This document shows positions 1,288 through 9,894 of a stretch of DNA of 64,000 bases, piece by piece. Below the pieces are notes generated by a model. It ran no database searches and had not been told where the DNA came from. It saw only the letters and a program-made list of their open reading frames with translations. The position numbers and the translations under genes are program-made. The first letter of the stretch is position 1. Each line of letters begins with the position of its first letter. The DNA lies in assembly GCF_003952385.1 (NCBI RefSeq), contig NZ_CP034444.1, positions 2,914,001-2,978,000 of the forward strand, read 5' to 3'. Origin of the DNA: Mesorhizobium sp. M1D.F.Ca.ET.043.01.1.1. Lineage in GTDB: Bacteria > Pseudomonadota > Alphaproteobacteria > Rhizobiales > Rhizobiaceae.

Positions 1288-2316
1288 TCATAAAATTGCG
1301 CCAGCTGCGTTGCTAATGAAAAGGTCGATGTCCCGAATATAGCGACCTAGCATGGCATCGCTGGCGTGGCCGGTTTGTTGCCGGATTTTCCAGGGGGATA
1401 CCCCGACCATAGCTGCCGATGTGACCAGCCCGGCCCGCAACGAGTGAGCTGAAAAGCCATCCGGGCTGACGTCGGCGGCCAACAGTCTCCCCTTCAAGAC
1501 CAGCGCCACTGCCTCTGCAGACAGACGCTGTTCGCTGATGTGACCGTGACGGCTGACACAACGGAATATTGGTCCAGCACCAATTGTGGCGGTGGACAGC
1601 CATTGGTCGAGAGCGTTGACGGGGCAGCACCGAGTTCGACCGAACGGAATGCCGATCTTTCGACCAACCCCCTCCTGGTCCGTCTTCGAACGCCGCAATT
1701 GGATGATGATCCCCTGTCGAACTTGCTCGATGTCCTCCACGTCGAGGCCTACGAGTTCAGATCGTCGAAACCCTCCTGCGAAGCCGATCAGGAGCAACGC
1801 TCGATCCCTAGTACTCTTGGGGTCGTCACCCATGCGCTCTAGCACTGCGAACAAGTCATCGCGCAGGAGGGGCTTGGCTTCAACTTGAGCGGTTCCGCGA
1901 CTGCGTTTGATGCCGCGAATTGTCGCCTTCACCAGTTCAGACCTTGTCGGGCTGGCGAACCCCTCTGCGGCATGCGCCTTGGTGATCGTTGCCAGACGCC
2001 GACAAAGTGTGGCGACGCTTAATGTGTCCGCATGCTCCGCAAGATATTTGGCAATCGTCATATCGGTGGCCGGAATGCTGCCGCCCCAGGCCTGGAAGTG
2101 AGCAAGATCGGCGGCATATGCCCGGCGGGTATTTTCGGACAGGCTCTTTTCCACATACCCGGCTACGTCGTCGGGCAACTCGGTTGTGAAGTTAATTTCA
2201 CAAAGCGGCGTGGTGGCGTTCGTAGCGGCTCCGGGGGGTACTGACAGGTCTGCCAAAGGCCCCAATATGGGTCGTGATAAGAGGGGATTATCACGAGTTA
2301 GACGGCCTTTAGACAT
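1288..2316 (-). CDS. Tyrosine recombinase (phage integrase / XerCD-like)
   Basis: 342 residues, with a core-binding (SAM-like) domain at about residues 45-140 and a catalytic domain at about 160-340. The catalytic set is visible: Arg in GGFRRSEL (184/185), Lys in RRSKTD (211), HSLR (His291, Arg294), TGHAS (His317) and LGRYIRD (Tyr326). It performs site-specific DNA strand exchange. It overlaps the upstream 359-aa gene by 8 bp, so the two are probably translationally coupled. It is unrelated in layout to the 579-aa integrase beside the tRNA, so it may serve a different element or a DNA inversion/excision role. Family assignment is secure; its target is unknown. Confidence 0.92.
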   Translation of the reverse strand: MSKGRLTRDNPLLSRPILGPLADLSVPPGAATNATTPLCEINFTTELPDDVAGYVEKSLSENTRRAYAADLAHFQAWGGSIPATDMTIAKYLAEHADTLSVATLCRRLATITKAHAAEGFASPTRSELVKATIRGIKRSRGTAQVEAKPLLRDDLFAVLERMGDDPKSTRDRALLLIGFAGGFRRSELVGLDVEDIEQVRQGIIIQLRRSKTDQEGVGRKIGIPFGRTRCCPVNALDQWLSTATIGAGPIFRCVSRHGHISEQRLSAEAVALVLKGRLLAADVSPDGFSAHSLRAGLVTSAAMVGVSPWKIRQQTGHASDAMLGRYIRDIDLFISNAAGAIL

Positions 2317-3388
2317 GTTGGCGCTCCTCGTTCAGGAGCGGGATATCGTTGCGAAGCAGTGAGATGATTTCGGTGGCGTTTGGACAATGCGAGCCTTGGC
2401 TTTCGATTTCCCACAGCCGCCGAAGTTCGTCTGCTAGTGGCCATCGGTAGTGTGTCCGCAACAGGCCGCCCTCGACTGCAAACAGTATGTCGCCGAGGAA
2501 TTTAATCCGCTGCGCGGGCGAGACATGGCTGCGGACCCAGCGAGCCGTGTTGCAGTTGCGTCCGAGAAACCGTCTCAGCGCCTGCTGCCCTTCGCGGCTA
2601 TAAACGTCGAGCGCCCAACTAGGCAGCACGCCGCACATGGCTTCGGGAGGAAAGTCGTCGTCCTCGATCACTGCCGGCTGCTCAGGCTTTAGCGACGCCA
2701 GCAGCACGACCAGCGGGCACAGGACCTGCCCGGCCCTTCGAAAACCTTCCCGCGCAATCTCGACCAGGGTGTGGGGATGACCTGCTTCGCAAAGATCATC
2801 GAAGAGGGCTTGTGGTGTTCCCTTTCGTGTCCGGAGCTGCGGTGAGGCGCAACGATCAGTCCCGGCCAAATACCAGGCGGCCAGCGCACGCTTCGGCAGC
2901 GGGGCACTGCTCCTCACAAACGCGAGCAATTCGGAGGTTGTGCCATATGTGAGGCCCAGCCGAAGATGCTCATACGATGGGTGCCGTTCGGCGAGCATGA
3001 GTAGATCGTCAGCGCTCCGGCATTTCGGTGCGTCGCACATTCGCTCGACAAGATAGCTTGCGACGGACCATTCGCCGCCGATTTTTGCCCGAAATGATTT
3101 CCCCGCGAGCGAGGCCGTGACGAGGCCAACGGTGTCGATATCAGCGACCCCGACATCCTCGAACGCTATCGAGCAAGCCCGTCGCCAGAACCTTTCTGGC
3201 GACTGCCGAAGCAGCGTGGCGGCTGCCTGCAATGCGAATTGTCCGTGCCCGCGCCGGATAGCTTTCTGAAGCAAGGCCATGGCCAACCAGGGTGAAATAT
3301 CGAGGGGATGGGGAACGGGCGGCTCATGGCGAAGCAGTTGCTGCACCAATTCGTGTCGCAGGATAGAGAGGGTTTCGGGACAGTTCAT
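2309..3388 (-). CDS. Stand-alone protein resembling the C-terminal region of RarA/MgsA, coupled to a recombinase
   Basis: 359 residues, with a strong ribosome-binding site (AAGGAGG) 7 bp before ATG 3388. Residues about 37-83 (ALLQKAIRRGHGQFALQ, then SIAFEDVGVAD) match the start of the MgsA/RarA C-terminal helical domain, where family members read like AL.KS.RG.D..AALYW and R.ASEDIGLAD. There is no AAA+ ATPase domain, so the region is detached from its usual partner. RarA acts at stalled replication forks and its C-terminal part mediates oligomerisation and SSB contact. Here the gene overlaps the recombinase start by 8 bp, suggesting an accessory factor for recombination. The domain call is from a short motif and is moderate; the function is inference. 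Confidence 0.6.
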   Translation of the reverse strand: MNCPETLSILRHELVQQLLRHEPPVPHPLDISPWLAMALLQKAIRRGHGQFALQAAATLLRQSPERFWRRACSIAFEDVGVADIDTVGLVTASLAGKSFRAKIGGEWSVASYLVERMCDAPKCRSADDLLMLAERHPSYEHLRLGLTYGTTSELLAFVRSSAPLPKRALAAWYLAGTDRCASPQLRTRKGTPQALFDDLCEAGHPHTLVEIAREGFRRAGQVLCPLVVLLASLKPEQPAVIEDDDFPPEAMCGVLPSWALDVYSREGQQALRRFLGRNCNTARWVRSHVSPAQRIKFLGDILFAVEGGLLRTHYRWPLADELRRLWEIESQGSHCPNATEIISLLRNDIPLLNEERQHV

Positions 3389-3444
3389 GTGGCTTCCTCC
3401 TTGGAGTTCAAGGGAGGAGCTGAGCGTTCAGTCCCACTATTAAT

Positions 3445-3457
3445 GATATAGTATATC
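3445..3457. promoter_or_regulatory. 13-bp perfect palindrome upstream of the recombinase operon
   Basis: GATATA-G-TATATC is a perfect dyad about 57 bp above the start at 3388, inside an AT-rich stretch that would carry the promoter of the RarA-C-like/recombinase operon. It is a candidate operator or part of the -10 region. The binding protein is unknown. Confidence 0.4.
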
Positions 3458-3516
3458 AGGTCTTTATCAAGTTATATTAGCCATCTACAACAAATAGCTG
3501 GCCAACGGGGCAATAC

Positions 3517-3780
3517 CTATAGAAATCGGCGCTGCTGTTTACGCGAGGATTTGAACACAGTCTTCACAATTTTACCAGAAACCGGCACGAAGACACCCCG
3601 CAATCTCTGAGCTAGATCGATTTGGTGCTTTGCCTCTGCTTCTATTTTCTCAAAATCGTGCTCTGAGAGTAGGAACCCATGAGCCGTTTCGGTGCCGTTC
3701 TCAATCACAAACTGAACCTCCGCGGGTCGAATGCCTCGTTGACGCATTCGCAAATGAGCATGATCGCTAAATTCAAGCAT
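3517..3780 (-). CDS. DUF4258 domain protein
   Basis: 87 residues. The N-terminus FSDHAHLRMRQRGI matches the DUF4258 signature (S.HA..RM..RGI), and the C-terminus is basic (KSSRKQQRRF). Known: DUF4258 proteins are small, occur on mobile elements and are often suspected RNase-like toxins, but no activity is firmly established for most. The gene overlaps the end of the RAMA-like gene by 8 bp and is the last of three overlapping genes. Inferred: part of a small toxin or defence cassette. The family call is good; the function is open. Confidence 0.7.
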   Translation of the reverse strand: MLEFSDHAHLRMRQRGIRPAEVQFVIENGTETAHGFLLSEHDFEKIEAEAKHQIDLAQRLRGVFVPVSGKIVKTVFKSSRKQQRRFL

Positions 3781-4114
3781 TTGTTTCCTGCCCCTTTTTC
3801 GAGCGGAGTGTCTGAGCGGGAACCCAATCCTTAGTCAGAGGCAACCTGAACCAAAGGTCTCGCCAGGCATTTCGCGACGTGCCACCCGCGACCTTTGACG
3901 CCCACTCCGACGGCGAGTATTCACCGGAAGCGTCGACAATCTTTCCGCCTTGGATCTTGGCATAGTGATGGTCTGCTCCATACGCCATTCGGACCTCTGA
4001 TCCCTGGGGTATCGTCACCTCTTTCCAAACAAGTGGCTTGTTGAATTCGCTCATCTCCGCCACGGCCAACGCCAGCCGATTTTTGTACAAGGCCGGCGCG
4101 TATTTCTGCATCAC
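3773..4114 (-). CDS. Small protein with a RAMA-like domain
   Basis: 113 residues from GTG 4114; ATG 4111 is in frame and also possible. Residues about 28-95 run VWKEVTIPQGSEVRM, GGKIVDASGEY, SPSEWASKVAGG, NAWRDLWFR. This follows the RAMA (restriction enzyme adenine methylase associated) layout: a strand-rich dG.i.d..G..y half, then SPS.aA....gg..nGW..W. Known: RAMA domains accompany restriction, methylase and nuclease proteins and are thought to read modified DNA. The start overlaps the stop of the 58-aa gene as GTGA, and the end overlaps the DUF4258 gene. It could instead be a related domain such as DUF4357. Confidence 0.55.
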   Translation of the reverse strand: MMQKYAPALYKNRLALAVAEMSEFNKPLVWKEVTIPQGSEVRMAYGADHHYAKIQGGKIVDASGEYSPSEWASKVAGGTSRNAWRDLWFRLPLTKDWVPAQTLRSKKGQETNA

Positions 4115-4287
4115 CGCCCCCAGGCGGTCTCCCCAGTGATCCTCCCCCCAACTTCTACGCTATTTTCTATCCACCTTTCGACTAACGTCTCCGCGAGTTG
4201 CTCGGGGCTCACCTTGCCATCGGAAAAGCGCACGATGTCGCTATAAAGCTCGCGAGAAAATGGGATAAATACGACGCTTGTAGGCAT
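4111..4287 (-). CDS. 58-aa protein of unknown function, first gene of a three-gene overlapping operon
   Basis: Small reading frame, ATG 4287 to TGA 4111. The product starts MPTSVVFIPF and continues with a helical, acidic stretch (SPEQLAETLVERWIEN). A TAGGAACC element lies just before the ATG. Its TGA overlaps the GTG start of the RAMA-like gene (GTGA), and the three genes together form one coupled unit, 4287 to 3517. I do not recognise the family. The size and position resemble an antitoxin or a small regulator, but no DNA-binding motif is clear. That it is a real gene rests mainly on the 4-bp overlap and on in-frame continuity. Confidence 0.55.
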   Translation of the reverse strand: MPTSVVFIPFSRELYSDIVRFSDGKVSPEQLAETLVERWIENSVEVGGRITGETAWGR

Positions 4288-4487
4288 ATCTGGTTCCTAT
4301 AATTTCGCTCTAGCACGTTATAGCCCCACAATAGGCTCAACTTTTAGCAGGCGTCAATAGCCGTTGTTTGGAAAAAATAGTTTCTTTTAGCTGGATCGCC
4401 GTAGAGTTGGTTCTCTTGCGCAGGGCTTTGCGTCCCACCAAAATGCGCCAGCTGGCATATCTGTCAGCGGGGATTGGAGGATAGCTG

Positions 4488-5549
4488 GTGCCACTACGCT
4501 GCCTCGGGGCTGAAGGCGAGAGTATCCTGGCATTCGACCTGAATAGGGAGGAATGGGCAGCGCTGCGGAAGGGCAATGCGCAATCGCGGCATCTGCGAAT
4601 GCCGTGTTGCACCTCTCATGCGGTAATGAAGGTGTCGTCTCGCGGGCAGCAGTTTTTTGCACATCAGCCGCATGGAATTTGCACCACCGCTCCCGAGACG
4701 GAACAACATCTTCTCCTCAAGAGCCTTGCGGTCGAGGCCGCTCGAAAGGCCGGGTGGACGGCATCGACCGAAGTCCGGGGCTTCTCGCCAACCGGTGAAG
4801 AATGGACCGCCGACGTTCTTGCCGAAAAAGGCGATCATCGTGTTGCGGTCGAAATTCAGTGGTCGCCACAATCCTTAGATGAAACGATGCGACGACAGGA
4901 GCGCTACAGGCAGTCTGGCGTTCGCGGCCTGTGGCTACTTCGAAGACTGGGCTTTCCCATCTCCAAGGAACTCCCCGCTGTTGTTGTGTCGGGGGATAGT
5001 CAGGGCGGTTTCGAAGCCAGGATCCCGAATGGAACTCGGCAGAACAAGAAGAACCTCGATGATCCGAGGAACTGGCGACAGCAGATGCCGATTGCATCGT
5101 TTCTGCATGCCGCGTTCGAGCGTCGATTTCGCTATGGGATCGAGACTGACATGCCGGCAATCGTCACCGTGCAGTCGCGCAAACTTTGGTGCCGAGAGTG
5201 CCGTGCGCCAACCTGGGCAATTAAGTCAATCGAGATAACGGTAGGGCCGTACTCCTCTCAACGAACGCTTCTCGACTTACCAGATCAGGCTGTCATGGAG
5301 GTTGTTCAGAAGCTTCCTCTGGATGAACCCGTCGGGACCATCAAGTCTCGGTTTGTACGTCCTCTTGGACGACCCCGCTTCAGCAACGGCTGCTTTAATT
5401 GTGATGCCCTGATCGATGATTTTTTTGAAAATCAGGCATGGTGCTCAGAGCTGAAAACCCTCGCCATTTTCCCAGTACAGCTGTCTAATGGCTGGCAGGA
5501 TGTCATAGGACCGCGGTACGGCTGGGGAGTTCACCCACAAGGACCGTGA
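4488..5549 (+). CDS. CoiA-like nuclease family protein
   Basis: 353 residues from GTG 4488. Seen: a cysteine/histidine region (MPCCTSHAVMKVSSRGQQFFAH, 38-59), PETEQHLLLK (69-78), then WTADVLAEKG...VAVEIQWS (106-126). The last has the D109...E122-x-Q124 pattern of a PD-(D/E)xK nuclease core. Two CxxC pairs near the C-terminus (CRECRAP, CFNCD) suggest a zinc ribbon. Known: CoiA is a competence-induced protein of Gram-positives; homologues in proteobacterial islands are annotated as competence-like but may be defence nucleases. It is divergent from the 58-aa/RAMA/DUF4258 operon and shares a 200-bp control region with it. Family call good; role unknown. Confidence 0.8.
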   Translation: MPLRCLGAEGESILAFDLNREEWAALRKGNAQSRHLRMPCCTSHAVMKVSSRGQQFFAHQPHGICTTAPETEQHLLLKSLAVEAARKAGWTASTEVRGFSPTGEEWTADVLAEKGDHRVAVEIQWSPQSLDETMRRQERYRQSGVRGLWLLRRLGFPISKELPAVVVSGDSQGGFEARIPNGTRQNKKNLDDPRNWRQQMPIASFLHAAFERRFRYGIETDMPAIVTVQSRKLWCRECRAPTWAIKSIEITVGPYSSQRTLLDLPDQAVMEVVQKLPLDEPVGTIKSRFVRPLGRPRFSNGCFNCDALIDDFFENQAWCSELKTLAIFPVQLSNGWQDVIGPRYGWGVHPQGP

Positions 5550-5945
5550 GGGACAAAAAATGTCTCCGGCAAGAAGTTCGGCGACAAGCCTCCTGAGCCG
5601 AAATGGGTTTCCGTCAGACCAAGCAAACTCTGCTATTCTTAAGAAGGCGACTGTCGGCTGAACCTCCCCCGGGTAAGTGCTTGATTATCGCAAAGTATTC
5701 GTCATAGACGGGGTGCCCCGTACCCCTTCCTGGATATATCCGGGGCGTATCCCTGGATGTGTCTTTAGACATCTGAGAAGGACACGCTGTAAGCAGGGAA
5801 CAAGCTCTTCGCCCCGCTCTAAGTCGAGCGCTCTAAACGGCATATCCTATAGGCCAGTTGGTTCAAATCACCCCATCTCGCGGGGAGCTACGTGCGCGAG
5901 AGTGTAGTTAATTTCACCAGCCTATTGCTGGTTGACCCAGCAAAC
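5550..5945. other. Gene-free stretch
   Basis: About 396 bp between the CoiA-like gene and the HNH-type gene, which converge here. Short frames exist but show no codon pattern or domain. A TTCAAATC string near 5870 looks like a tRNA T-loop, but no tRNA can be folded around it. I see no clear terminator. Confidence 0.5.
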
Positions 5946-7985: not shown

Positions 7986-9725
7986 TCAGGTACTTCCTGA
8001 AAGTGGCCTCAAGAATTTCAGATCCAGTCCTGGATATGAAACCTTTGCCATCGCCGCTACGTGGAGATCAGGATCGGCGTTGTTGCCGTAACCATCGCTT
8101 GCCAAGCTGCCTTGGGCCCAACCCCCGAGGGCCCTCAGAGTATCGGGGCCAGCTTCGCTACGGCGCAATGCGTCGCGAAAACTGTGCCTGAGCGAATAGA
8201 ACGACTGTCTCGGCCCGACGACGATTGCTTCCTTCAAGAAGCTGTCACGGAAGCGCTTCAATGAATACGAAGCCCAGTTCCCGTACATATCTTTCTTAAG
8301 GCCTCCGAGCAGACGCTCGGCTTTGGCTTTCTGTTTGCCCTGGGCAAACTCGACAAACCCGAGTGCAATCAGCTCTGGATGAACAGGTACTTTCCTTCTG
8401 CTTGTCGAGGTTTTCAGGGTTTTTGTGGGCTGGTCCGTTCCGTCATCGTCGTCGTCATATGAGGCGACCACATCGACAAACCAGGTGCCGTTGGCTGAGC
8501 ATTTCACGTCGGACGGCAACATTTGACAGATCTCGTTCGGTCGCATGCCCATGAACAGGGTGAGCAACGGCAGCCAGTATCGCCATTCGCGATCCGGCTT
8601 AACATACTGGACCATCGCATCGGGAGCGCAGCTCTGGTAGAACGAACTGCTGAAGAATGCCTTGATCTGATCGAGCGAAAATGGCTCACGCTTGTCCTCG
8701 GCCTTTTCCGCATCACGCCTCAGCGGGCGCAGAGTTGCGGCGGGGTTATGAGGGAGCAGCCGCTTGAGTTCAGCCAACTGCAGGATGCCGCGAAGGGTAT
8801 CCAGATACGTTGCCTGAGTGACCGGCGACAGGAGGGGCTTGCCGTCCTTCGCGCCTTTCTTGATGGCTTCTTCCAGCGCCAGCCCAGGGTAGTGCTTCTT
8901 TCGGTTGCTAGGCGTCCGAGCCAAAAGGCTGCGGGCGCGCAGGCACAGATCGTAGTCGATGGCGGAGACCGGGGTGTCGTCCCCGACCAGTTCCCGCACC
9001 AGCGCGACCTGGGCCTTCACCTTGTCTTGCCATTTGGCTGACATGCCGTTGGCTTCCGCCTCCTCGATCTGCATCGTCTGATACTGATTGGCCAATTGCT
9101 CGAAACGAAGCGGCTTAGGACGGGCAGGATCGAACGCGTTGTCGAAGAAGCTATGGCCGAAATCATCCTGGTATCGAGCCAACTTTCGTTTTTGAAGTTC
9201 GAGCAATCCCCGTCTGACCAGTTCCGCATACAGTGCAGCATGACCGCTCTGTAGCGAGTTGGGATCGTGGCCCGCCTCTTGAAGCAGTTTGTCGCTGACA
9301 GAACCAATCCACTGGCCGGCACCGAGATCGTCCGGGTCACGGAGGAGCGCGATATCGATCTCCAGGTTTACGACCGCCTCTTTTCGTTCTGCATTCGTGG
9401 CCGGGATCGCTTTCTCTCGTTCCTCGAATTGGCGCGAATTGCTTGCGACGTAGGCCTGAACGAGTTCGAGCAGCTCCTGATCTCCGAGCACCTTAGAAGG
9501 CTGGGCGATGGGTTGGTGTTCGCCGGCTTCGAGCGATGCGAACCGCGCACTCCATGTCACGTCCTCGATTTCGCGGAGCCTCTTGGCCTTCTTTTTCTCC
9601 GACGTATGCAGCGAGTGGAAAATCATCGCTTTGCCCAACGCCTGCACGAGGTGCTTGGGGACTACGCGACGGTAGTACCAAGTTCCTTTACGGCATTGGA
9701 GGTGAGTATCGGCCACGTCCTTCAT
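7986..9725 (-). CDS. Tyrosine integrase of the island, tRNA-adjacent
   Basis: 579 residues. The N-terminus (LQCRKGTWYYRRVVPKHLVQALGK...SLHTSEKKKAKRL) is the arm-type DNA-binding segment common in proteobacterial island integrases. The catalytic domain occupies the last ~230 residues, with Arg in MGMRPNEI (about 400), SLRHSFRD (about 510-518), GGWAQGS, and Tyr in DGYGN near the end. An acidic insertion (YDDDDDGTD) sits inside the catalytic domain. The start lies 94 bp from the 3' end of tRNA-Ala, which is the expected attachment site. It catalyses integration and excision of the island. Confidence 0.93.
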   Translation of the reverse strand: MKDVADTHLQCRKGTWYYRRVVPKHLVQALGKAMIFHSLHTSEKKKAKRLREIEDVTWSARFASLEAGEHQPIAQPSKVLGDQELLELVQAYVASNSRQFEEREKAIPATNAERKEAVVNLEIDIALLRDPDDLGAGQWIGSVSDKLLQEAGHDPNSLQSGHAALYAELVRRGLLELQKRKLARYQDDFGHSFFDNAFDPARPKPLRFEQLANQYQTMQIEEAEANGMSAKWQDKVKAQVALVRELVGDDTPVSAIDYDLCLRARSLLARTPSNRKKHYPGLALEEAIKKGAKDGKPLLSPVTQATYLDTLRGILQLAELKRLLPHNPAATLRPLRRDAEKAEDKREPFSLDQIKAFFSSSFYQSCAPDAMVQYVKPDREWRYWLPLLTLFMGMRPNEICQMLPSDVKCSANGTWFVDVVASYDDDDDGTDQPTKTLKTSTSRRKVPVHPELIALGFVEFAQGKQKAKAERLLGGLKKDMYGNWASYSLKRFRDSFLKEAIVVGPRQSFYSLRHSFRDALRRSEAGPDTLRALGGWAQGSLASDGYGNNADPDLHVAAMAKVSYPGLDLKFLRPLSGST

Positions 9726-9818
9726 GCTCCGAAATGTATCACTAGAGTGATGCAGAGGGGAGATGTAAGCCGTTGAATTTGCTATTATCTAAGCGTTACA
9801 GGTGCTTAGAGGACTGTT

Positions 9819-9894
<76 letters not shown>

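Follow-up and report, generated by a model that had tools for sequence, protein, structure and literature searches.

We analyzed a 64,000-nucleotide stretch of DNA from Mesorhizobium sp. M1D.F.Ca.ET.043.01.1.1 (contig NZ_CP034444.1, positions 2,914,001 to 2,978,000; hereafter, the window), focusing on a group of small overlapping open reading frames (ORFs). On the minus strand, ORFs of 58 aa (4111..4287), 113 aa (3773..4114, with a GTG start) and 87 aa (3517..3780) follow one another, the first two overlapping by 4 bp in a stop/start arrangement and the last two by 8 bp. Separated from them by a divergent gap of 200 bp, a plus-strand ORF (4488..5549) encodes a CoiA-like protein of 353 aa. A previous reading made without database searches (the sequence-only reading) had interpreted these ORFs as a three-gene cassette that, together with the CoiA-like nuclease, would form a compact defense or modification-sensing unit. 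Its coordinates, overlaps, and divergent spacing hold, as do residues D109 and E122-x-Q124 of the CoiA-like protein. The unit itself we delimit otherwise: with a probability of roughly 0.6, the locus is a toxin-antitoxin-type two-gene cargo module, with a putative antitoxin gene that bears a RAMA domain and is split in the window, and with the CoiA-like gene outside.

The 58-aa and 113-aa ORFs are, by sequence comparison, consecutive pieces of one gene rather than separate genes because both match successive parts of the same relatives. The 113-aa ORF has 146 relatives at E ≤ 1e-3; the best 120 of these, on which lengths and comparisons rest, are mostly 170-190 aa long. This ORF spans residue 59 to the end of the relatives, and the 58-aa ORF aligns with residues 1-54 of the same proteins, with a best E value of about 2e-18 in the small database consisting of those 120 sequences. 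The latter match is based on BLASTP and phmmer, MAFFT having placed the 58-aa tail poorly. The two pieces occupy different minus-strand frames, and two-frame translations compared with intact relatives locate a single frame change within 4111..4165 (minus strand). Intact copies are present in other genomes, and the gene was found once in the window genome. In a 24-protein alignment, the 113-aa piece retains 28 of the 28 invariant columns and 40 of the 40 columns with at least 90% conservation. The cassette of three separate small genes is rejected on this consecutive match to one protein family. The split may reflect a real, fresh break or an error in the sequence, or else the gene would work as two chains, with its N-terminal and C-terminal parts made separately.

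Neither piece matched a Pfam family directly (for the 113-aa ORF, at E ≤ 0.1). Among the relatives of the 113-aa ORF, 9 of 24 matched the RAMA family (PF18755) at E ≤ 1, with a best E value of 1.5e-4, and the C-terminal ~83 residues in the predicted fold of a relative match the RAMA structures of MPND and of the CcrM C-terminus. With both profile and predicted fold in agreement via relatives, the 113-aa piece is assigned a RAMA domain, in line with the RAMA-like label of the sequence-only reading. The 58-aa piece contains a segment resembling a ribbon-helix-helix (RHH) domain. In the model of a relative, an N-terminal extended segment is followed by helices at residues 12-21 and 28-46, a helix order that fits RHH, though none of six close-family N-termini matched an RHH family in Pfam. 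Foldseek produced no match at E ≤ 0.001 for the whole RHH-RAMA model, the VIA-align listing included no RHH structure, and a PDB sequence search with the RHH-RAMA profile returned no match. By its predicted architecture, the N-terminal segment may serve dimerization and operator binding. Modification sensing by the RHH-RAMA protein is possible and represents the least certain step of the mechanism because, in one structural study, N6-methyladenine was without effect on DNA binding by the MPND RAMA domain, and the RAMA domains of MPND and CcrM contact DNA without base-specific contacts (PMC9963953). Another paper states that RAMA could not be confirmed to prefer methylated DNA and cites some evidence of sensing (PMC11037411).

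The 87-aa protein contains DUF4258 (Pfam PF14076; E = 3.6e-6, 27.6 bits, cut-off 25). In a 2025 survey, this family is listed within the RelE/ParE superfamily of type II toxins, with the gene order antitoxin/toxin and activity unknown, and its members are called still undescribed (PMC11980606); a table in another survey connects DUF4258/CdiA with DNA breaks (PMC8790059). With the Pfam match above the cut-off and the superfamily assignment of the 2025 survey, the protein falls into a toxin superfamily of type II modules, as the sequence-only reading had suspected, and we consider it a putative toxin. Its fold model is poor: the best Foldseek E value was 2.2, a match to a colicin E5 complex that ranked 16th was left unused, and the DUF4258 profile gave a single match in the PDB sequence search, at E = 0.1. 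Among three candidates searched for homologues of the protein, only the protein itself was recovered. At E ≤ 0.5, its matches in other genomes comprise four genes, all located directly after an RHH-RAMA gene, with the one in L002 alone being strong. In a search of 7,488 frames (ten duplicate or own-genome loci excluded), a profile built from five DUF4258-like neighbors placed the window protein directly behind its training members (E = 0.0029), followed by a frame of L072 that overlaps another ORF (E = 0.037).

The partners of related RHH-RAMA genes were surveyed in 30 loci of the genome collection (L002-L031), a partner being defined as a gene that overlaps the RHH-RAMA gene or starts within 50 bp after it. 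A small partner directly follows in 12 of the 30 loci: DUF4258-like in seven (L016, L019, L020 from Nitrosospira, L023 from a Thiobacillus bin, the truncated case of L002, the weak case of L026, and L031, where the RAMA gene is partial), a conserved protein of ~64 aa in four (L003, L004, L006, and L011), and a PIN-domain protein in one (L005). A further ~64-aa case, L038, came from a genome search. None of the four ~64-aa partners matched NCBIfam, no PDB match was found below E = 0.64, and the L003 member had no match in Pfam; a likeness to HicA, judged by eye, was not adopted as a name. The Pfam families listed for 13 neighbors include no toxin model besides DUF4258 and PIN. An all-against-all comparison of 102 downstream candidates from 36 loci, with the more distant RAMA loci left out, recovered only the DUF4258-like and ~64-aa families, apart from one locus present twice and the second frame of one gene.

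Several of these neighborhoods have features of their own. At L005:5998-7043, the RHH-RAMA gene carries a C-terminal extension, and the PIN-domain gene starts after 2 bp; at L045:1098-1956 (minus strand), only 1 bp separates a distant RAMA-like gene from the PemK/MazF-type toxin gene that comes after it (PF02452, E = 2.3e-11). At L018:5207-5763 (minus strand), a parDE pair, recognized by the Pfam models ParE_toxin and ParD_antitoxin, adjoins a RAMA gene of the other strand, and a DUF3800 protein (L009:6677-7477) is encoded 136 bp after an RHH-RAMA gene and was counted as no partner. In a tree of 27 proteins (L017, L018, L022, L025, and L031 excluded), partner labels are unclustered; the starred branches, 6 of the 24 inner ones, force at least five changes for DUF4258 and two for the ~64-aa partner. 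All three main groups of the tree contain DUF4258-like genes; one of these groups (91/95) is unstarred. Repeated gain or loss of unrelated small partners is a feature of antitoxin families.

Candidate regulatory signals lie upstream of the pair. A sigma-70-like promoter candidate, TTGACG-18-TATTGT (4328..4357, minus strand), matches the consensus at 9 of 12 positions; the candidate is weak, since the scan gave two sites in the region and an average of 0.8 in shuffled sequences. Just 5' of the first ORF, an exact-arm search found a 6-bp inverted repeat with a 15-bp spacer (4297..4323, minus strand), which may be an operator or may be due to chance. Wiring of the locus to CcrM-type GANTC methylation was set aside: there are no GANTC sites in 3301-5600 compared to 64 in the 64 kb, with an expected number too low for this count to be informative.

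The pair is located in an integrative island, the setting proposed in the sequence-only reading. The island, about 16.1 kb, reaches from the left copy of a 27-bp direct repeat to tRNA-Ala. This repeat is the 3' end of the tRNA-Ala, duplicated exactly at the far boundary of the element: one copy is at 9810..9836 and the other is 16,071 bp to the left, outside the window (G000:C1:2907739-2907765). Beside tRNA-Ala, the island integrase (7986..9725, minus strand) has a DUF6538 N-terminus (Pfam E = 1.8e-15) and a Phage_integrase match of 25.2 bits, just below the cut-off of 27.1. The island backbone further includes a 359-aa protein (2309..3388, minus strand), with only a sub-threshold Pfam match to MgsA_C and, in PHROG, a match to an ATPase (E = 0.061), and a tyrosine recombinase (1288..2316, minus strand; Phage_integrase, E = 4.4e-15). 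The genes of these two proteins (1288-3388, minus strand) form a conserved overlapping two-gene unit: relatives of both are neighbors in nine of ten further family loci (L065-L073, the exception being L074) and also in L063, the sister island.

The CoiA-like protein contains the CoiA_nuc domain (PF06054; E = 2.5e-7, 31.4 bits, cut-off 20.3), bearing out the nuclease-like domain recognized from the sequence. A sister island in the congener G1379 shows the same gene order, with identities of 82% for the integrase, 74% for a 309-aa protein, 81% for the CoiA-like protein, 80% for the 359-aa protein, and 71% for the recombinase. Its slot between the CoiA-like and 359-aa genes is occupied by two different genes, whose products of 145 and 241 aa have no Pfam match, and there was no RHH-RAMA gene among the ORFs called in 18 kb of this island. 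Because the sister island retains the CoiA-like gene with other genes in the slot, the CoiA-like gene is most likely part of the island backbone, and the RHH-RAMA/DUF4258 pair exchangeable cargo, as judged from this one sister comparison. The left cargo differs as well: it comprises the defense-type genes GmrSD, Schlafen/AlbA_2, and AAA_21 next to DUF4276 in the window island (window -4294 to 897; L062:4706-9897), versus a type I methylase and a gene with an HD domain in G1379.

Within the genus, 3 of the 41 genomes searched yielded the CoiA-like gene, including its own genome and one with a partial, 42% match. Its relatives occur in 85 plasmid records versus one record for RHH-RAMA; whether this record is among 65 unlisted CoiA records was not checked, and no CoiA gene is named in the 8.4 kb around the RHH-RAMA relative. 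The two CoiA neighborhoods viewed include no named RAMA or DUF4258 gene, with several neighbors in one of them annotated as hypothetical only. A phmmer search of the ORFs in 36 RHH-RAMA loci (flanks of up to 6 kb) recovered CoiA-like relatives in the own genome only, plus one match at E = 0.21.

In the two-gene module that we favor, gene 1 would encode an RHH-RAMA protein that dimerizes and binds the operator via its RHH-like N-terminus and contacts DNA via its RAMA C-terminus, the latter in agreement with the predicted fold, and gene 2 the DUF4258 protein, which its RelE/ParE superfamily suggests to be toxic. The two genes are adjacent and co-oriented, a module-type arrangement, and the regulator-first order with short overlaps suggests an operon in which gene 1 would repress transcription and neutralize gene 2. 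Located in an exchangeable slot of a tRNA-Ala island, beside defense-type genes, the pair could stabilize the island or act in abortive-type defense. The partner is unrecognized or absent in 18 of the 30 loci, repeated gain or loss of partners also fits a loose association, and a split antitoxin beside an intact toxin gene calls for caution, unless the C-terminal piece is still made and sufficient. Two of the 18 loci, L022 and L025, encode larger proteins in which a C-terminal RAMA domain is combined with GmrSD_N (E = 1.4e-26) or HNH (E = 5.5e-9).

A somewhat unlikely alternative casts the RHH-RAMA protein as a regulator that binds chromosome or island DNA in the manner of SeqA, combining RHH oligomerization with DNA reading; the small genes would then be hitch-hikers and DUF4258 an accessory, not a toxin. 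The 18 loci without a recognized partner are compatible with such a role, as is the SeqA_N (PF17206) match in two of three distant RAMA N-termini tested (L043 and L044, not L042); in downstream listings, which were non-systematic, we noticed no small toxin-like gene directly after SeqA_N-type RAMA genes. However, the unrelated partner families, with the PIN and PemK/MazF-type genes immediately downstream among them, form a pattern typical of antitoxins, and the recurrence of DUF4258-like genes across the three tree groups also argues against a mere regulator. By eye, L035, L041-L044, L046, and L053 have SeqA_N-like N-termini followed by RAMA, that is, a SeqA-like architecture with another DNA-binding domain. 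RHH-RAMA and related RAMA genes are rare, with 4 of 297 genomes in the family, 4 of 397 in the order, 10 of 385 in the class, and 4 of 398 in the phylum (own genome included each time, overlapping draws, thresholds of 1e-8 or 1e-10, SeqA_N-type and other RAMA proteins counted). Metagenome contigs yielded 564 relatives. Among 72,556 plasmid records, every search led to one and the same record with an RHH-RAMA relative. A phage origin of the gene was rejected, as neither of two pattern matches obtained in viral contigs with the A2 query was confirmed.

An extension of the two-gene module, speculative and in our estimate unlikely, is that RHH-RAMA antitoxins gate interchangeable toxins by the modification state of DNA. 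Through its RAMA domain, the complex would stay on host DNA as long as this is correctly marked (or unmarked); once the mark changes, for instance through incoming modified phage DNA or lost host adenine methylation, the DUF4258, PIN, or ~64-aa toxin would be set free. That the RAMA profile also matches the GmrSD_N and HNH nuclease proteins of L022 and L025 is in keeping with a function in DNA discrimination.

That the locus is a decaying remnant, a split pseudogene with nothing functional left, appears quite unlikely. In its favor are the frame change, which interrupts a gene that relatives have intact, and the finding of the gene only once in the genome. Against it, the full set of invariant columns in the RAMA piece implies that any decay must be recent, the frame of DUF4258 is open, and the stop/start overlap could sustain translation. 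A four-gene modification-sensing defense system with a built-in CoiA-like nuclease is highly improbable: the divergent layout around a common 200-bp intergenic region, the CoiA_nuc domain, and the defense-type genes elsewhere on the island speak for it, but the co-occurrence on which the sequence-only reading was to stand or fall was not seen in the 36 loci or the plasmid records, the sister island retains the CoiA-like gene with other genes in the slot, and none of five window proteins matched PADLOC at E ≤ 0.1. Of the compact unit originally proposed, the RHH-RAMA/DUF4258 pair survives, and the nuclease as a member does not; the same PADLOC result led us to reject a named defense system, and the sequence-only reading had likewise matched none.

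The two-gene toxin-antitoxin-type module resembles the type II RelE/ParE modules (relBE, parDE, and brnTA) in its small overlapping genes, antitoxin/toxin order, putative RHH-like DNA-binding protein, small toxin-family protein, mobile-island location, and several partner families, and differs from them in the RAMA domain that follows the RHH-like segment of the putative antitoxin. The 2025 survey mentions fusions with MqsA for DUF4258, and a word search of that paper for a RAMA domain gave none (PMC11980606). No paper joining RAMA domains to antitoxins was found in the open-licence library searched, subscription papers being outside the search. The predicted C-terminal fold is shared with RAMA proteins (CcrM C-terminus and MPND; PF18755), whereas the close family has an RHH-like N-terminus instead of an attached methylase, nuclease, or peptidase. 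Like SeqA, some distant relatives combine a SeqA_N-type N-terminus with a DNA-binding C-terminus; unlike SeqA, they have RAMA in place of SeqA's own C-terminal domain, and the close family has no SeqA_N match. The CoiA family (PF06054) is represented only by the plus-strand neighbor, a backbone gene with plasmid relatives.

RAMA is a proposed reader of adenine methylation with disputed biochemistry. If one RHH-RAMA family indeed serves several unrelated toxins, DNA reading would be tied to toxin-antitoxin control, DUF4258 would gain a defined partner, and small intact pairs would allow direct tests of RAMA function. Should modification gating also prove true, these modules would form a toxin-antitoxin class whose interchangeable toxins are controlled by epigenetic marks on DNA.
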